Shown: positions 4,876-13,077 of the stretch, one piece after another
How positions within the stretch are numbered: position 1 is the stretch's first letter
Layout: every line of letters starts with the position of its first letter
From: a virus
Length of the DNA stretch: 24,852 nt
Direction: 5' to 3' (one strand)
Virus record (IMG/VR): IMGVR_UViG_3300034122_000081
Location: 1-24,852 of that record
Made by a program: the position numbers and the translations under genes
The notes under the pieces: generated by a model
Told to the model about the DNA's origin: nothing
The model's database searches: none
Seen by the model: the letters and a program-made list of their open reading frames with translations, nothing else

Positions 4876-6524
4876 TGAAAACACCGATTCTGGGCGGCAC
4901 TTATGTTGCGCGATCGGTAAATGCTGCCGATGCCCGCATGGTCAATCTTTTCCCCGAGGTTGTTCCCGAGGGTGGAAAAGAGCCGGGGTTTCTAAACCGC
5001 GCGCCGGGGCTGCGCCTATTGGCAAACATGGGCGATGGCCCTATACGCGGGTTGTGGCAATTTAACGGGTACGGGTATGTTGTGTCTGGTGAAGTGCTGT
5101 ACAGAGTTGACAGTATTTGGCGTGTGTTTCCAATCGGCACTGTTTCAGGATCATCCGGCCCTGTCAGCATGTCTGACAACGGCACACAATTGTTTGTAGC
5201 TTGCAATGGCCCTAGTTTTATTTACAACAGCCTGACAAACCAGTTTGCACAGATCACCGACCCAGATTTTCCTGGCGCCGTTACCGTGGGCTACTTGGAT
5301 GGCTATTTTGTGTTTAACGAACCCAATAGCCAGCGCCTGTGGATCACCAGCTTGCAAGATGGTACATCCATTGACCCGTTAGATTTTGCAAGCGCTGAAG
5401 GCTCTCCAGACGGCTTGGTGTCGATTTTAATTGACCACCGCGAAGCATGGCTGTTTGGAACCAATTCTGTCGAAGTTTGGTATGACTCAGGCGCTGCTGA
5501 TTTTCCATTAAGCCCAGTTCAAGGCGCGTTTAATGAGGTGGGTTGTATTGCGGCCTTTTCGGTTGCCAAACTAGACAATGGTATTTTCTGGTTAGGTGCG
5601 GATGCGCGTGGCCGTGGTATTGTTTATCGCGCCAATGGCTACACGGCTCAACGCGTGTCCACCCATGCTGTTGAATGGCAGATTCAGCAATACGGCAATT
5701 TGTCGGATGCGATTGCATACACATACCAACAAGACGGCCATTCGTTCTATGTGCTGATTTTTCCTTCAGCCAATACCACATGGGTGTTTGATGTATCAAC
5801 AAATCTGTGGCATGAACGGGCGGCATTTATAAACGGGTCATTTACCCGCCACCGTTCAAATTGCCAAATGTCGTTTAGCAACGAAATTGTTGTAGGCGAC
5901 CATGAACTTGGCAACATTTACGCGTTTGATTTAGAAGTGTTTTCAGACGCCGGCGCAGTGCAGAAATGGCTTCGGTCATGGAGAGCGCTGCCGGTCGGCA
6001 CAAACGATCTTAAACGTACTGCCCAGCATTCGCTTCAGCTTGACGCCGAAACTGGCGCAATTGATTCCAATGTAACCACACCAATTGTTCTTATTGATAT
6101 TTCTGAGCCAAATGAAGATTTGCTTACCGAAAGTGGTGATTTTCTTGTTTGGGAAGAAAACGGCCCTGACTCATTGCTGGCTGAAAACGGGGACATTATT
6201 GTCCAAGAAAATGGCGATGCAATGTATTACAATGGCGCGCCCTCAATTGTAGGCGGCAAAATATTGATCCAAAAAGGGTTACTTACCGCAACTGCAATTG
6301 ACCCACAAGTTATGTTGCGCTGGTCGGATGACGGCGGGCACACTTGGAGTAACGAACACTGGCGATCTATGGGTCTGACAGGCCAATGGGGGCGGCGCGT
6401 GATCTGGCGTCGGTTGGGCATGACATTAAAGCTGCGCGACCGCGTTTATGAAGTGTCTGGCACAGACCAAGTAAAAATAGCAATCATGGGCGCTGAACTT
6501 AATGTGAGCGCAACCAATGCCTAA
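4875..6524 (+). CDS. Packaged DNA stabilisation protein, P22 gp10-like
   Basis: A 549-residue protein forming part of the tail hub that closes the head after packaging. Features shared with P22 gp10 are an N-terminal NLFPE-type segment, a PGL motif near residue 45, the repeated blade-like strands with YVVSGEVLYRV and VSMSDNGTQLFVAC, ASAEGSPDGLVSILIDHREA, and a C-terminal part with DDGGHTWSNEHWRSMG then RVIWRRLGM, which matches the end of the family well. Length is close to P22 gp10 (about 470) plus an insertion. Residues about 406-452 hold a low-complexity stretch with two imperfect copies of an LLxExGDxxVxExG unit, not expected in P22 gp10. It overlaps the next gene by 8 bases. Confidence 0.8.
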   Translation: MKTPILGGTYVARSVNAADARMVNLFPEVVPEGGKEPGFLNRAPGLRLLANMGDGPIRGLWQFNGYGYVVSGEVLYRVDSIWRVFPIGTVSGSSGPVSMSDNGTQLFVACNGPSFIYNSLTNQFAQITDPDFPGAVTVGYLDGYFVFNEPNSQRLWITSLQDGTSIDPLDFASAEGSPDGLVSILIDHREAWLFGTNSVEVWYDSGAADFPLSPVQGAFNEVGCIAAFSVAKLDNGIFWLGADARGRGIVYRANGYTAQRVSTHAVEWQIQQYGNLSDAIAYTYQQDGHSFYVLIFPSANTTWVFDVSTNLWHERAAFINGSFTRHRSNCQMSFSNEIVVGDHELGNIYAFDLEVFSDAGAVQKWLRSWRALPVGTNDLKRTAQHSLQLDAETGAIDSNVTTPIVLIDISEPNEDLLTESGDFLVWEENGPDSLLAENGDIIVQENGDAMYYNGAPSIVGGKILIQKGLLTATAIDPQVMLRWSDDGGHTWSNEHWRSMGLTGQWGRRVIWRRLGMTLKLRDRVYEVSGTDQVKIAIMGAELNVSATNA

Positions 6525-7239
6525 TACCACACCAAACGTCACCAAGATACCTTCGGCGCGGGTAGCCTTGATTGAGGAAAACACGAATCTAATTTCGCGG
6601 GAATGGTTTCGTTTTTTTAATAATGTCTACACCATATCGGGCGGCTCAACGCAAGGCATTACGCAGATTGAAAATGGCGGCACTAGCGCGTCTACAGCGG
6701 CTCAAGCGCGGGCAAATTTAGGTGCGGGTACAGTCAATCGCGTGACGGGTACGGGCTACGCTAGTGGGCTGTCATTGGTCGGCGACGTTACGACCACAGG
6801 CGCGCTTACGCTGACAGGCAATGTCGTTGTTACTTCGGCCGACCTTATAGGAACTATTAACATCAGCACTCAAACCACGGGTGATCTTGACCTTGCTACC
6901 CGCGTTACGGGCGTCTTGCCTGTTGCCAACGGCGGCACTGGTGTAGCAGCAACAACTGTTGTCACCAAAACAGCCGACTTTACGCTTGCTGACACTGAAA
7001 GTTGGGTCATCAACAATAAATCGGGTTCAACTTGCACGGTTACACTCCCCGCTGCGTCAGCTTGGGGTGGTAGGGCAGTAACGTTTAAAAACTTGCAACT
7101 TCAAACCCTTGTGTCGGCATCTAGCAATGTCGTACCATTAATTGGTGGCGCTGCGGGCACGGCAATTCTTCCAGGCCTAGTGGGTGCGTGGGCGACCCTT
7201 GTATCAGATGGTACAAATTGGGTGGTGATGGCAGCATGA
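6517..7239 (+). CDS. Tail-fibre-like structural protein
   Basis: A 240-residue protein. Residues about 25-42 (SREWFRFFNNVYTISGG) resemble a short phage adaptor helix. The middle contains ENGGTSASTAAQARANLG and VLPVANGGTGVAATT, two copies of the NGGT-type motif found in many phage tail fibres, separated by Thr/Gly-rich strands. The C-terminal 80 residues are a small beta domain ending LVSDGTNWVVMAA, as in the two proteins after the coat gene. It probably sits on the tail or hub. It starts inside the gp10-like gene and its stop overlaps the next start (ATGATGA), so all three genes are translationally linked. No receptor-binding domain is evident. Confidence 0.65.
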   Translation: MPNTTPNVTKIPSARVALIEENTNLISREWFRFFNNVYTISGGSTQGITQIENGGTSASTAAQARANLGAGTVNRVTGTGYASGLSLVGDVTTTGALTLTGNVVVTSADLIGTINISTQTTGDLDLATRVTGVLPVANGGTGVAATTVVTKTADFTLADTESWVINNKSGSTCTVTLPAASAWGGRAVTFKNLQLQTLVSASSNVVPLIGGAAGTAILPGLVGAWATLVSDGTNWVVMAA

Positions 7240-8090
7240 TGACATACGCGCCAACCTCAGTGACATACGGCAAAGGCTTTGCTATTGCGTTGCCTATGGC
7301 CAAAAAGGTCAAGGCGCTTGAGGCTGAACTATTTAAAATGCCGCAAGCTGACATTGTGACGACCCACACATTCTTACCCGGTGTGTATGAACGGGCAATT
7401 ACTATTCCCGCATGGACTGTGTTAACAGGCGCTGAACACAAAACCGCCTATCGCGTACGCTTGGAAAAAGGCACAATCGCCGTAAACACAGACAACGGCG
7501 TTAAAGTTCTTACCGCACCTTGTGAATTTCAAGCCAGTGCGGGAATGCAACGCGCTGGCCGCGTTTATGACGAAGAAGTAATTTGGGTCGACGTTTACGA
7601 CAACCCTGACAATTGCACCGACCTTGCGATTTTGGAAGACCGGTTGTACGTTGTCCCCGAATGTGGGCTGGCCGATAGCCGAACAGAAAGCCAAAAAGCC
7701 CAAATTGATTACAAATTGTTTTTGCACCAGTTGGGCACAACAGACGCTGAGATTTTAAAAATTGCGCAAAACGAATCTGATTTGATTGACATGCCCGATG
7801 GATTTTTTGTAGAACTCAAACCATCCCCAATTCACGGCATGGGTTTGTTTGCAACAAAAGATTTTGAGGCAGGCGAAACTGTCTGCCCTGGCAGACTTAA
7901 TGGGAAGCGTACGCCGGGCGGAAGATTTATCAATCATTCCCAAAACAGCAATATTCAACCGGAATTGGTTGAAAATAACATATTTGCTGTTGCTGCGCGT
8001 AAAATCAGCGTAGGTGATGAATTATTAGTTGACTATCGAGCGTCAATGAGAGTTAATTTTGGCTTTGTAATGCAAGGAGAACTATTATGA
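7236..8090 (+). CDS. Cupin-SET fusion protein (putative protein lysine methyltransferase)
   Basis: A 284-residue protein with two domains. The start is ATG at 7236 (ATGATGA overlap with the previous stop); an earlier in-frame ATG at 7188 would lie deep inside the fibre gene. Residues about 44-140 are cupin-like: strands around IPAWTVLTGAEHKTAYRV, a turn at LEKGTIAV, TAPCEFQASAG and EVIWVDVY. Residues about 190-270 are a compact SET domain with the usual signatures: SPIHGMGLFATKDFEAGE (GxG at 201-203), RFINHSQNSN at 230-239 and GDELLVDY at 260-267. SET enzymes transfer methyl groups from S-adenosylmethionine to lysine side chains. The segment between the first two motifs is very short (about 15 residues), so the substrate lobe is minimal and activity is uncertain. 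Its target is unknown. The next gene overlaps by ATGA at 8087. Confidence 0.75.
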   Translation: MMTYAPTSVTYGKGFAIALPMAKKVKALEAELFKMPQADIVTTHTFLPGVYERAITIPAWTVLTGAEHKTAYRVRLEKGTIAVNTDNGVKVLTAPCEFQASAGMQRAGRVYDEEVIWVDVYDNPDNCTDLAILEDRLYVVPECGLADSRTESQKAQIDYKLFLHQLGTTDAEILKIAQNESDLIDMPDGFFVELKPSPIHGMGLFATKDFEAGETVCPGRLNGKRTPGGRFINHSQNSNIQPELVENNIFAVAARKISVGDELLVDYRASMRVNFGFVMQGELL

Positions 8091-9427
8091 GTGGATGGGT
8101 AGCTGGTGCAGTATTAGTCGGTACGGTATATTCGGCCAACAAAGCGTCAAGTGCTGCCTCAGCCGCAGCAGAAACTCAAGTTGCGGCGGCTGAAAAAGCA
8201 GGCGACACTTCTCTTGAAATAGCAAATCTGCAAATTGGCGCTCAAACCAGTGCGATTGACAAACAGCTTGCGGCAAGTAAAGAAGCATTAGCGTTACAAC
8301 TTGCTGCTGACAAGGAAAATGTTGATAAGCAAATTACGCTTCAAACAACAACCCTTGACAGAACTCTTAAAGCTCAAGCTGACGCTGCCGCTGCGGGCCA
8401 AGCCGCCGCTGCTGCTGCGTTAAGTCAACAAATTGCTGCTCAAAAAGAAGCCCTCGACGCTCAGTTAAATTTGCAACGCGAACTGTTCAACAAACAAGTT
8501 GAAAACCTTAGTTCGTTTAAGCAAGCGGGTGAGGCTGGCCAATCTAAGATGATGGACCTTTTGGGCTTGAGTGGTAACACAAACGCCCCAGGCTATGGTT
8601 CAGCGGCCACCGCATTTAAAGTTGAAGGGTTTGACCCCAACACGCTATTTCAGCAATTTAACGCCAAAGAGATGGAGCAAGACCCTGGCTACGCATTTCG
8701 CTTGGCTGAAGGTCAAAAAGCCATTGAGCGCTCAACTGCTGCTAGAACTGGTTTGCAATCTGGCGCTGCCCTTAAAGCCGCTGCTCGATTTGGCCAAGAA
8801 ATGGGTTCTCAGGAATACCAGAATGCGTTTAATCGTTTTCAAGCCAACAAAGCATTCCAAGCCCAAGAATATGGCAACGCCTTTAATCGGTTTACATCTG
8901 AAAGGGCAAACATGTTGGCTCCTTTGCAAGCCTTGACCGCTAGTGGTCAGGCTTCAGCAGCAGGCCAAGCTGCGGCTGCGGGTAATTTTGCATCTGGTGC
9001 ATCGCAAGCCTTGCAAAACTATGGTGCTGGTCAATCTGCCGCGTATGGTGGTTATGGCGCAACTCTTGGAGATATTGCCGCACGAACTGGCGCAGGCGCA
9101 TCTGCTGCCCTTAGCAATTACGGCGCGGGTATGTCAAACACATACGCTGGCTCTGCTGCGGCGCGTCAAAGTGCTTATGGTCAAGCGGGAGCAACTGCCG
9201 CAAATGCTTACGGCAATCTTGGTAGCAACTTGACTAACATTTACGGCCAACAAGGCGCTAACCAAATCAATGCAATTACTGGCGCAGCAAACGCTAGAGC
9301 CGCAGGGCAAATTGGTTCAGCCAATGCTATAACACAAGGTGTCAACACAATGATTGGCGCGGGTATCAGTGGCTACAATGCGTACAACCAAAATCAGTTG
9401 TTGAACAAATACCTCATGAAAGGTTAA
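8087..9427 (+). CDS. Putative DNA ejection/internal virion protein 1
   Basis: A 446-residue Ala/Gln-rich protein. It starts with a short hydrophobic stretch (WVAGAVLVGTVYS), followed by a helical, Ala/Gln/Lys-rich region to about residue 150 that looks like a coiled coil. Residues about 190-280 contain the pattern ARTGLQSGAALKAAARFGQE, then two similar YxNAFNRF segments about 20 residues apart. The last 140 residues are a Gly/Ala/Tyr-rich repeat region (NYGAGQSAAYGGYG, YGQAGATAANAYGN). Podoviruses place such proteins after the tail hub genes, and P22 gp7, gp16 and gp20, which pass into the cell with DNA, have similar composition. The assignment is by position and composition. Confidence 0.6.
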   Translation: MSGWVAGAVLVGTVYSANKASSAASAAAETQVAAAEKAGDTSLEIANLQIGAQTSAIDKQLAASKEALALQLAADKENVDKQITLQTTTLDRTLKAQADAAAAGQAAAAAALSQQIAAQKEALDAQLNLQRELFNKQVENLSSFKQAGEAGQSKMMDLLGLSGNTNAPGYGSAATAFKVEGFDPNTLFQQFNAKEMEQDPGYAFRLAEGQKAIERSTAARTGLQSGAALKAAARFGQEMGSQEYQNAFNRFQANKAFQAQEYGNAFNRFTSERANMLAPLQALTASGQASAAGQAAAAGNFASGASQALQNYGAGQSAAYGGYGATLGDIAARTGAGASAALSNYGAGMSNTYAGSAAARQSAYGQAGATAANAYGNLGSNLTNIYGQQGANQINAITGAANARAAGQIGSANAITQGVNTMIGAGISGYNAYNQNQLLNKYLMKG

Positions 9428-9433
9428 TAAATC

Positions 9434-10828
9434 ATGCCACTTGATCCTAGTATTCCCCTTCAGGCTAGATTTTCACCAATCAACTATGAGATTCCGCAAC
9501 CCATCAATACACTGATGAGCGCGATGAAAATCAAACAGCTTGGCCAACAAAACGAGTTGGACGCGCTAAAAATGCAAGAGTATGAGCGCGCGCGTACTGA
9601 AGAAGAAGGCTTGCGTAACTACCTAAGTGGCGGCAGAGAAATGGGTGCGGCAGACCTTAGTTCGCCGGACACGCGAACAAATCTGTTGCGATACGGCAAA
9701 ACTGGCGTAGCGTATGCTAAGGCTTTGACCGAGCAAGAAACGGCAGCGTTGACGCAAAAAGAAACGCAATTCAAAGTTCAAAAAGCAAGAAAAGATTTTG
9801 TTGCGCAAGCACAACGCGACACAAGTCAAAACCCATCAGACGCCAACATTACGGCGTACAAAGAAGATTTGATGGCTAACCCGCTGTTTACTGAAGCTGA
9901 AAAAGCGCAAATGGCTGCGGGGGCTGACCGAATTTTGGCTATGCCAGTTAATGAACGAAAAGCGTTTATGGCTAGCCAAGGCGCAAGCGCAAGCGAGTTG
10001 AAGCCGGCAATTTCACAAGTCAACCGGTCTGGACAGACTGATGTAATATCAACGCCCGCGTTTGGCGGCGCGCCTACAACGCTTGGCAACTTTTCCGACG
10101 TTCCATTGCCTGCCAACGTACAAGCGCAAAAAATTCAAATTGCGCAGCAGAGTCGGCCACCAGCACAACCTTCTGCGCCGGTTGCGGTTATTGACCCAAC
10201 AACAGGTCAACCAATATATGTCAGCCGCGAAGAAGCGTTGCGCAACAAAATGCAACCCGCATCTAGCGCAGCTAATTTAAAACCTTTGACAGAAGGACAA
10301 ACAATTAAATTGCGCACTGATGTTGGCAAAGATTACAAAGCCGCATCAACTGCGCTGGCGCAAATGGACGATTTGCTTGACTCAATTGAGAGCGTCAAAA
10401 CCGCGCCTGGCTTGTCAGCCGCTACGGGCTTTACGGGTAAGTATCTGCCGTCATTCTCTGAAGGCAAAGCGGCCCAAGCTGAGACACGCCTTGCTAACTT
10501 ACGCGGTAAAGTAACTGCGCTAGGTAAGGCAACTGCGGCCATGTCAGGCGCCATTGGATCAATTGCCAACCAAGAATGGAAAATCTTGTCTGATCAAATT
10601 GCAGCGCTTGATGAAGTTAAAGGCAAAGGACCTTTGCTTGAACAGATTGACTTGGTTGAACAACAAGCGCGTGGTGCTATTGCCCGCGTTCGAGACACAT
10701 ACGAAAAGACGCGGTCTGAAGACTTTGAGCGCTTCCCTCAGTTTCGCGATTTACCCGCACCACGCGGTAAAAAAGATTCTGGTGGCGGTACTGGCGGGTT
10801 TAAATATCTCGGAAAAGAAGGTGGATAA
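9434..10828 (+). CDS. Putative ejection/internal virion protein 2
   Basis: A 464-residue protein. The first 230 residues are mostly helical, with charged coiled-coil stretches (TQKETQFKVQKARKDFVAQA). A Pro/Gln-rich linker at about 237-250 separates a second helical half, which contains KAASTALAQMDDLLDSIESV and a hydrophobic AMSGAIGSIANQEWKILSDQ segment near 370. The end is Gly/Lys-rich (GGGTGGFKYLGKEGG). Second members of P22-type ejection sets have this helix-linker-helix shape, and position between two other candidates supports the call. It begins 6 bases after the previous gene, without a strong ribosome binding site, and its TAA shares a base with the next ATG (10828). Confidence 0.55.
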   Translation: MPLDPSIPLQARFSPINYEIPQPINTLMSAMKIKQLGQQNELDALKMQEYERARTEEEGLRNYLSGGREMGAADLSSPDTRTNLLRYGKTGVAYAKALTEQETAALTQKETQFKVQKARKDFVAQAQRDTSQNPSDANITAYKEDLMANPLFTEAEKAQMAAGADRILAMPVNERKAFMASQGASASELKPAISQVNRSGQTDVISTPAFGGAPTTLGNFSDVPLPANVQAQKIQIAQQSRPPAQPSAPVAVIDPTTGQPIYVSREEALRNKMQPASSAANLKPLTEGQTIKLRTDVGKDYKAASTALAQMDDLLDSIESVKTAPGLSAATGFTGKYLPSFSEGKAAQAETRLANLRGKVTALGKATAAMSGAIGSIANQEWKILSDQIAALDEVKGKGPLLEQIDLVEQQARGAIARVRDTYEKTRSEDFERFPQFRDLPAPRGKKDSGGGTGGFKYLGKEGG

Positions 10829-13077
10829 TGGCTACCAAATACCGTGTTCAAGGCCCAGATGGCGTAGTCCATGTTTTTGAAGGACCGGATGACGCGACGC
10901 CGGCGCAAATAGAATCTTTTGCCGCGCAAACTTTTGGCGCCGCGCCCGCGCCCGCCCCTGCTGCACCGCGCGGCAAAGCAGGCATGTTTGACATGCTGTC
11001 TGCGCCGTTTGAGATGGGCGCTGCGCTTGCGGCCAAGCCGCGTAAAGAACAAGTAGAATTTGTCGCCCCTGCTGTTGAGGCATTGGGCAGCGCTGGCGGT
11101 GCAATTGTAGGAACTGGCGCAGGGCCGCTTGGCACAGTAGTTGGTGCAGGCGCTGGCTACGCTGGCGCTAAAGAACTATTGCGTTTGGCCGCTGGCGAAA
11201 GTGGTAGAGAAACACTTCCACAAGCCGCTACACGACAAGCACAAAATGTGCTTGAAGGCGCGACAATGGAAGCCTTTGGACGTGGGGTTGTAAGCCCTGT
11301 TATTGCCAAAGGCGCTGAATACGCAAACAAACTTAAAAACATCAAACTTGACCAATACATTAAAGCTGTTGGCGATAAGGGTGAAGAAATTGTTAATGCT
11401 TTGCGTGGCCGTACACAAATCGTTCCAGGCACATCGCCAACCGCCGGCGAAGTCGCCGCCCCTGTTGGTAGTGTAGGACTGTCGGTATTGCAAGCGCGCG
11501 CCCGTCAAGTGCCAGGCGCAGCAGATATTTACGCAACTAAAGAAGCGCAAAACATTGTTGCCCGTCAAAATCAAGAAGTACGCGCGGCGGCTAAATTTGA
11601 CGCATCTAAGCAACGTCTTCAAGCAAAAATTGATCGCGGCTTAGTTAATGTAACGCCGGGCGAAGTTGGCAGTACGTTGATTGACGCGGCCAAGGCTGAA
11701 CAAAAAGCTGTTAAAACAAAAGTAGTGCAGCCTGCTTACGACGCCGCGTTTGAAGCTGCTGGCGACGCAAAGATTGACGTATCAAAAGTTGTCAACGAAG
11801 CAGAACGTATTCTTGATCGTAAACTGTCAAGTTTTGCTACTGAAACTGCGCCAGATACTGTACGCAAACTGCGCGGGTTTATACCTTCTGTGCCTGAAGC
11901 GGAAGCAGTGTCTATTGGCAAAGCAGGGTTTAAAGCAGCTAAAGCGCCTACACCCCCGCCAGCAACGCCAGAAGCAACGCTGTTGCAGCTTGATGATGTT
12001 CGCAAAGCCATCAATGCAGATATTGCGGCAGCTTCATCTAGCAACGCGCCCATGGCGGCCACGACCCTGCGCAACCTAAAGCAGTTACACGCCGCAATTG
12101 ACGACGCCGTTAAGTCAAGCACTGCTTTACCTGAAGAAGCCAAAACGCTGTACAAAGGCGCGTTGGACACTTACCGCACACAATACGCACCGCGCTTTAA
12201 AGAAGGCATCAATGCAAATTTGTTTAAACAAACAAACTTGCAAGAAACCAAAATTAAACCAGAAGATGTTGTCAGCAAATACTTTCAACCCAAAGGTGAA
12301 AGCGAAGCTAAAGACTTCTTGCGTTTGTTTGACAAGAACCCAGATGCAATGAAAATTGCAAGGACCGGCATTGAAGACTTGTACCGCCGTGAAGTAACCG
12401 ACGCTACTGGTTTTGTAACACCTGAAGCGCATGCTACGTTTATGAAAAAATACGCAGAGCCGCTTAAGATTCTTGATGACGCGGGTATGAACATTAGCCA
12501 ACGCGTTGGTGTTGTTGCAAAAGACGCGGTTCGGTTAGCAAAAATTGACGAACTTGCAAAAGCTAGTGGTAATAGGTTGGCGCCAGCATTACCAGCAGGC
12601 ACTAACGCGCTTGCGGTAGAAAAAAGAATTGGCGAATTGACCAGAAGTTTTACGCCCGAACAATTAAGCCATGTAAACGCCGTGCGGCAAGATTTGCTGC
12701 GTGAAGGTGAATATCAGCGCTTGGTAAAAGCTGGCGCAGACGCAGGCACTGACATTAAAAGTTTGGCCACAAAAACTGGTAGAGAAGCTGGCTTGCCTTT
12801 ACCAAACTTTTTGTCAGTACCAATTACGGTGTTTAACAATGTCGTTAAACGCCTAGCGCTTCGTATGGACGATAAGATTGCGCTAGAAATTGCCCGTGAA
12901 TTAACCAACCCTGCCATAGCCGCTGATCAAATTGAGGCGGCTATTAAATTGCAAGCGACACGTCGTGCGGCCACGCCTGGCGTCGGTACTGCCGCAGGGT
13001 TGGCCGGCACACGGGCGCTTGGCGCTGAAATGTCACGCCGCGCAGAACCTGAAAACCAAAACGCATTGGCCCGATAA
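10828..13077 (+). CDS. Putative ejection/internal virion protein 3 (large)
   Basis: A 749-residue protein, the third of the set. It starts with YRVQGPDGVVHVFEGPDDAT followed by PAQIESFA, a short N-terminal domain seen on several phage and bacterial proteins, then an Ala/Pro-rich linker. A Gly-rich hydrophobic stretch (residues about 90-115, with GAIVGTGAGPLGTVVGAGAG) could insert into a membrane, as needed for a DNA-translocation channel. The rest is a long helical, Ala/Lys-rich body with no recognisable enzyme motif; the lytic transglycosylase signature sometimes found in such proteins is not visible. The end is basic. Similar in size and place to P22 gp16, but similarity by eye is low. Confidence 0.55.
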   Translation: MATKYRVQGPDGVVHVFEGPDDATPAQIESFAAQTFGAAPAPAPAAPRGKAGMFDMLSAPFEMGAALAAKPRKEQVEFVAPAVEALGSAGGAIVGTGAGPLGTVVGAGAGYAGAKELLRLAAGESGRETLPQAATRQAQNVLEGATMEAFGRGVVSPVIAKGAEYANKLKNIKLDQYIKAVGDKGEEIVNALRGRTQIVPGTSPTAGEVAAPVGSVGLSVLQARARQVPGAADIYATKEAQNIVARQNQEVRAAAKFDASKQRLQAKIDRGLVNVTPGEVGSTLIDAAKAEQKAVKTKVVQPAYDAAFEAAGDAKIDVSKVVNEAERILDRKLSSFATETAPDTVRKLRGFIPSVPEAEAVSIGKAGFKAAKAPTPPPATPEATLLQLDDVRKAINADIAAASSSNAPMAATTLRNLKQLHAAIDDAVKSSTALPEEAKTLYKGALDTYRTQYAPRFKEGINANLFKQTNLQETKIKPEDVVSKYFQPKGESEAKDFLRLFDKNPDAMKIARTGIEDLYRREVTDATGFVTPEAHATFMKKYAEPLKILDDAGMNISQRVGVVAKDAVRLAKIDELAKASGNRLAPALPAGTNALAVEKRIGELTRSFTPEQLSHVNAVRQDLLREGEYQRLVKAGADAGTDIKSLATKTGREAGLPLPNFLSVPITVFNNVVKRLALRMDDKIALEIARELTNPAIAADQIEAAIKLQATRRAATPGVGTAAGLAGTRALGAEMSRRAEPENQNALAR

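Follow-up and report, generated by a model that had tools for sequence, protein, structure and literature searches.

A cupin-SET fusion gene next to the ejection genes of a P22-like podovirus encodes a candidate protein lysine methyltransferase

The DNA analyzed here, called the window, is the whole 24,852-nt stretch at positions 1 to 24,852 of the IMG/VR virus record IMGVR_UViG_3300034122_000081, which Pfam and PHROG matches identified as part of a P22-like podovirus. The gene of interest is an open reading frame (ORF) at 7236-8090 on the plus strand, as are its neighbors on both sides, and it encodes a 284-residue protein in which a cupin domain (residues 25-137; 7308-7646) is followed by a helical linker (residues 148-185; 7677-7790) and an ultra-compact SET domain (residues 186-272; 7791-8051). 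The gene order in this part of the window is scaffold, P22-type coat protein, gp4-like, gp10-like, fibre-like, cupin-SET and ejection genes. The fibre-like gene (6517-7239), recognized by a PHROG search, shares four bases with the start of the cupin-SET gene in an ATGA at 7236-7239, in which the fibre stop codon is 7237-7239. The DNA-ejection gene ej1 (8087-9427; PHROG 598, "DNA ejection") starts at 8087, four bases inside the 3' end of the cupin-SET gene, which also contains an AAGGAG at 8074-8079 as the likely ribosome site of ej1. The position between a fibre-like gene and the ejection proteins, proposed earlier in a first-pass annotation of the sequence, is thus borne out by PHROG matches and synteny. 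The same annotation described the gene as translationally coupled to both neighbors; the 4-base overlaps are present on either side, and they imply such coupling but are not a proof of it.

The C-terminal half of the protein scored 40.2 bits with the Pfam SET profile PF00856, whose cut-off is 22.4, and this match was recovered also by a six-frame search. The same profile matched 59 of 61 diverse relatives. The three motifs noticed in the first-pass annotation, together with a compact SET domain at about residues 190-270, were all found: GxG at G201-G203 (7836-7844), RFINHS at 230-235 (7923-7940) and GDELLVDY at 260-267, the last of which includes the ELLVDY segment with the presumed catalytic Tyr267 (8019-8036). 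The AlphaFold2 model of the linker and SET domain had a predicted local distance difference test (pLDDT) score of 93 and a predicted template modeling (pTM) score of 0.85, and the top 50 Protein Data Bank (PDB) matches of this predicted fold in Foldseek were all SET methyltransferases, including SET8, MLL1, vSET, PRC2 and NSD1; a PDB profile search also placed the domain here. The model of the full protein, built with 61 relatives, had a mean pLDDT of 88 with both domains mostly above 90, while its pTM of 0.56 leaves the relative placement of the domains unsure; its Foldseek matches were small cupins and, adjacent to them, SET methyltransferases. Judged by profile and by predicted fold, the C-terminal half is a SET domain, well above chance. 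The cofactor pocket was assessed through conserved residues and fold. The SET-I insert between the motifs, which is common in SET domains but does not define them, is nearly absent, and its place is taken by a family motif, GxRTPxGR, which in the window protein is GKRTPGGR at residues 223-230 (7902-7925).

The protein is a member of PHROG 34170, which covers residues 22-276 (E-value 5.8e-42), so that the family is already known, under the label "unknown function". Relatives were found in at least 536 IMG/VR virus contigs, in a sample which is biased towards SET-bearing proteins because most scans used SET-containing queries and which therefore says nothing on how common SET is among cupins. 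Among the deposited carriers are Rhodoferax phage P26218, Pseudoalteromonas phage PH1, phage zth2-2 and spring-water podoviruses, and one spring-water podovirus protein is annotated after the structure of the PBCV-1 methyltransferase. No description of the cupin-SET family was found in literature searches on Bbp23, phage SET genes and cupin virion proteomics, which covered few subscription journals; the family is real, widespread and apparently undescribed. The first set comprised 136 distinct full-span proteins, a few of them with a deleted SET domain, from which 34 representatives with less than 70% identity were taken. S197, G201, G203, R225, T226, G229, R230, N233, H234, E262 and Y267 were invariant in all 34, and the GxG, R(F/Y)xNH(S) and ELxxDY motifs are thus present in every one of them, although S235 can be Ala. 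All 134 distinct intact homologues, and also 14 relatives found in genome contigs, have a spacing from GxG to NHS of exactly 29 residues. Stand-alone phage mini-SETs have 36 residues there, and most of the bacterial SET domains that were found have 56-63. These mini-SETs are encoded in other phages by ORFs of about 103-130 aa (L052-L067), whose carriers include Prochlorococcus phages P-SSM7 and P-RSM6 and Pelagibacter phage Kolga, and are called hypothetical where annotated. The alignment of the SET domains is short and does not decide whether those of all cupin-SET proteins form one clade, or where they originated.

Among near relatives the SET domain has a median ratio of nonsynonymous to synonymous substitution rates (dN/dS) of about 0.095, by which measure it is under purifying selection; the corresponding value of the cupin is 0.063. 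A natural deletion provides a contrast. The same 201-nt in-frame deletion, which takes out the region from GxG to NHS, is present in contigs L033, L035 and L036 of three metagenomes. The cupins of L033 and L035 are 94% identical to that of the window, while their leftover SET half is only 54-57% identical and has lost the tyrosine of the DY motif (Tyr267); an intact relative with 93% cupin identity retains 86% identity over the corresponding region. Hence, once the cofactor site is gone, the constraint on the rest of the domain disappears, which is what would be expected if catalysis, beyond the fold alone, is selected, and which supports such selection. The first-pass annotation had suggested that the very short segment between the first two motifs could reflect a narrow or lost activity. 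This was not supported by the fixed spacing, the invariant hallmark residues and the low dN/dS, and from these comparisons the short segment is a family trait and not a sign of decay. A decayed SET domain was rejected on the invariant residues, the purifying selection and the contrast with the deletion lineage. A related explanation, in which an intact SET domain would have a structural or binding role in a tail protein and transfer no methyl group, could draw on the naming of cupin-only homologues as tail fibre proteins, on the near absence of SET-I and on the fact that SET can be lost. We consider it improbable, because the cofactor and catalytic residues are invariant even in members only about 30% identical to the window protein, and the remaining SET decays after deletion of its cofactor half.

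The N-terminal half was described in the first-pass annotation as cupin-like at about residues 44-140, and a cupin fold was recovered at about 25-137. PHROG 12032 and PHROG 24280 ("short tail fiber protein", "tail fiber adhesin") matched only this half, with E-values of 1.6e-21 and 2e-20, and the AlphaFold2 model gave cupin matches in Foldseek with E-values of about 1e-5 on the predicted fold. The Pfam cupin profile did not match the window protein and matched weakly only 2 of 61 relatives; sequence search also found no solved structure of a cupin homologue. The tail-fibre naming of the relatives is an annotation, for which the literature searched contained no supporting experiment. The cupin superfamily includes histone demethylases, a link that was raised for a protein of the host Cellulophaga baltica (PMC13288928), and the two halves could then be viewed as a JmjC-like demethylase partnered with a methyltransferase. 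This is highly improbable, since the ligand positions are not conserved, being A66, H68, Y72 and V74 in the window clade and H66, Q/H68, H72 and N74 in the other clade, and the best PDB matches are small cupins, not JmjC enzymes. In the window clade the HxH...E ligands and the motif-2 His of catalytic cupins are not in place, with no His at the motif-2 columns examined, and a JmjC-type demethylase was rejected on these residues. A second, separate cupin gene lies on the plus strand at 42-416 of the window, upstream of the scaffold gene; it has an HxH-type metal motif, matches PHROG 12032 with an E-value of 1.2e-7 and Cupin_2 below the cut-off, and has no BLASTP match to the window cupin-SET protein.

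The location of the gene is conserved in the relatives whose surroundings were fetched. Wherever a homologous gene was recognized directly downstream, it was ej1; directly upstream it was a fibre or gp10 gene, or gp4 in one contig. The overlap with ej1 was 4 bases in 55 contigs and 16 bases in 53, with starts taken from the longest ORFs. Cupins without SET immediately precede genes for internal virion or ejection proteins in T7-like phages (Sphaerotilus R1, Variovorax VAC_51), in Zobellviridae, and in Vibrio and Shewanella podoviruses. In Bordetella phage BPP-1 (L303, 6456-7375) the cupin gene bbp23 overlaps a GNAT acetyltransferase gene, bbp24, near the terminase.

The SET domain behaves as a detachable module. 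Cupin-only relatives occur inside the window clade (L041, L048, L319, L323, L330 and L331), and the cupin tree requires at least nine changes of SET status, four of which are forced by well-supported branches. Since the linker or the C-terminal tail is still present in several SET-less forms, SET was probably lost there and not absent from the start. In Paraburkholderia ferrariae (L224, 7114-8561) cupin and SET are two adjacent overlapping genes, and in a phage contig from a Methylobacter metagenome-assembled genome (L236, 7911-8768) the order is SET-cupin in the same slot directly upstream of the ejection gene. The linker helices (about residues 148-185) travel with SET rather than with the cupin, and linker and SET without cupin were found in integrase/primase islands (L225, 7860-8567; L226, 7773-8339; L233, 7890-8447). 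The small chromosomal islands that carry these three and the split pair all have an integrase, three have a primase or helicase, and L225 has an AlpA-like gene; no capsid gene was recognized near their SET genes. A strong match was present in only 1 of 198 and 1 of 399 related genomes, and these SET-bearing islands look like phage satellites or remnants. The GC content at third codon positions is 0.36 in the linker and SET part compared with 0.51 in the cupin part, which is weakly in line with a shuffled module.

The SET profile and fold, the invariant residues, the fixed spacing, the purifying selection, the decay after deletion and the conserved position together lead to the reading of the protein as a methyltransferase. 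We are moderately inclined to regard it as a late accessory S-adenosylmethionine-dependent lysine methyltransferase of P22-like podoviruses, docked by its cupin and acting on virion or ejection proteins. The cupin, the same module that stands alone in this slot of many podoviruses, would probably dock to the tail or to the ejection-protein assembly, and the SET domain could bind S-adenosylmethionine and methylate lysines, most likely in virion or ejection proteins of the same gene block during assembly. The co-occurrence of cupin and SET as adjacent genes and in swapped order favors this reading. Methylated phage structural proteins have been found in particles of other phages, and methylation has been found also in infected cells (PMC13288928). 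The lysine content of the products of the ejection genes ej2 and ej3 is about 7%, among the higher values of the virion block, while it is below 2% in the fibre and gp10, which mildly favors ej2 and ej3 over fibre and gp10 as targets.

Several observations weigh against this proposal. The SET domain is dispensable and repeatedly lost, and one relative without it has a major capsid protein identical to that of the window. No lysine in the major capsid protein, gp4, gp10 or fibre was kept in SET-bearing relatives yet lost in those without SET; for ej2 and ej3 the SET-less sets are too small and too diverged for such co-loss to be read. Sequence variation of the ejection proteins shows no link to SET status (ej1 identity 0.48 versus 0.46 at equal gp10 distance), and the near absence of SET-I, which aids substrate binding in known enzymes, leaves substrate binding unexplained. 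As a side observation, sequence change in this clade is much quicker in the ejection proteins (window 8087-13077 and relatives) than in gp10 or the cupin, with ej2 and ej3 about 25% identical where gp10 is 65-75% identical, regardless of SET status.

A host protein methylated after injection is a less likely target than virion or ejection proteins. An active enzyme could be packaged in the particle, ejected with the DNA, and methylate a nucleoid protein, RNA polymerase or a translation factor early in infection, which we hold to be rather unlikely. The gene adjoins the ejection genes, the SET enzyme vSET is carried in PBCV-1 particles and trimethylates H3K27 of the host (PMC7019647), host protein methylation is raised early in C. 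baltica infected by phages not known to encode methyltransferases (PMC13288928), and the repeated loss of SET fits a host-dependent effector. On the other hand, annotations of the cupin homologues name tail or structural proteins and not ejected ones, and since the module to which SET is fused occurs by itself in many podoviruses, a role on the side of the particle is suggested.

By analogy, we suspect that modification of lysines recurs around the proteins of this slot. A cobavirus GNAT was suggested to be the counterpart of T7 gp13 and to take part in virion morphogenesis (PMC6775973); gp13 itself gave only a marginal GNAT match (E-value 0.39). In SET-bearing genomes a GNAT match was found in 2 of 20, one of them over the cut-off, which shows neither exclusion nor pairing. 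More speculatively, short-tailed phages may keep an ejection-side slot for interchangeable lysine-modifying enzymes, a cupin-docked SET here and a GNAT type in T7- and cobavirus-like phages, so that lysine modification of ejected proteins would be a general, unrecognized step of assembly or takeover, with the same SET used by satellite-like islands; we think this unlikely as a whole. A 2026 study reported, as a new finding, methylated phage proteins, also in free virions, for phages in which no methyltransferase gene is known (PMC13288928), and the cupin-SET family is a widespread phage-encoded candidate writer of this modification. If this is true, a tiny relative of histone-methylating enzymes would serve these viruses to methylate proteins of their own particles or a protein of the host. 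Its carriage by the cultured phages P26218 and PH1 makes methylation of self or host proteins by phages directly testable, and a natural SET domain nearly without SET-I is useful for asking what a lysine methyltransferase minimally requires.

The closest known counterparts are gene 30 of P26218 and ANY29560.1 of PH1, members of PHROG 34170 with the same cupin-linker-SET architecture as the window protein; gene 30 occupies the slot after a gp10-like gene, and ANY29560.1 is in a similar place. Members of this PHROG are about 30% identical to the window protein and show clade differences in the cupin, and most of them, unlike the window protein, have an insert of 6-8 residues before GEE. The podovirus cupins called "short tail fiber protein" (PHA00672; MS_018 of VPMS1, VvAW1, bbp23 of BPP-1) belong to the same cupin family but have no SET; VPMS1 and most other cupin-only podoviruses have them before DNA-ejection or internal virion genes, as in the window, while bbp23 is near the terminase. 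The similarity of the window SET to the GNAT proteins of T7 (gp13) and cobaviruses is a positional analogy only, as fold and chemistry differ. vSET of PBCV-1 (PDB 1n3j, 3kma) is a similarly small viral SET domain, with 25% identity and a template modeling (TM) score of 0.64 on the target, but its segment from GxG to NHS is much longer, and it is a lone packaged domain of an algal virus acting on histone H3K27, while the window SET is fused to a cupin in a bacterial virus. SET8/KMT5A and MLL1/KMT2A have in common with the phage domain the fold and the RFINHS and EEL..DY motifs, while their SET-I insert is missing from the phage domain, which does not match the rest of these proteins either.
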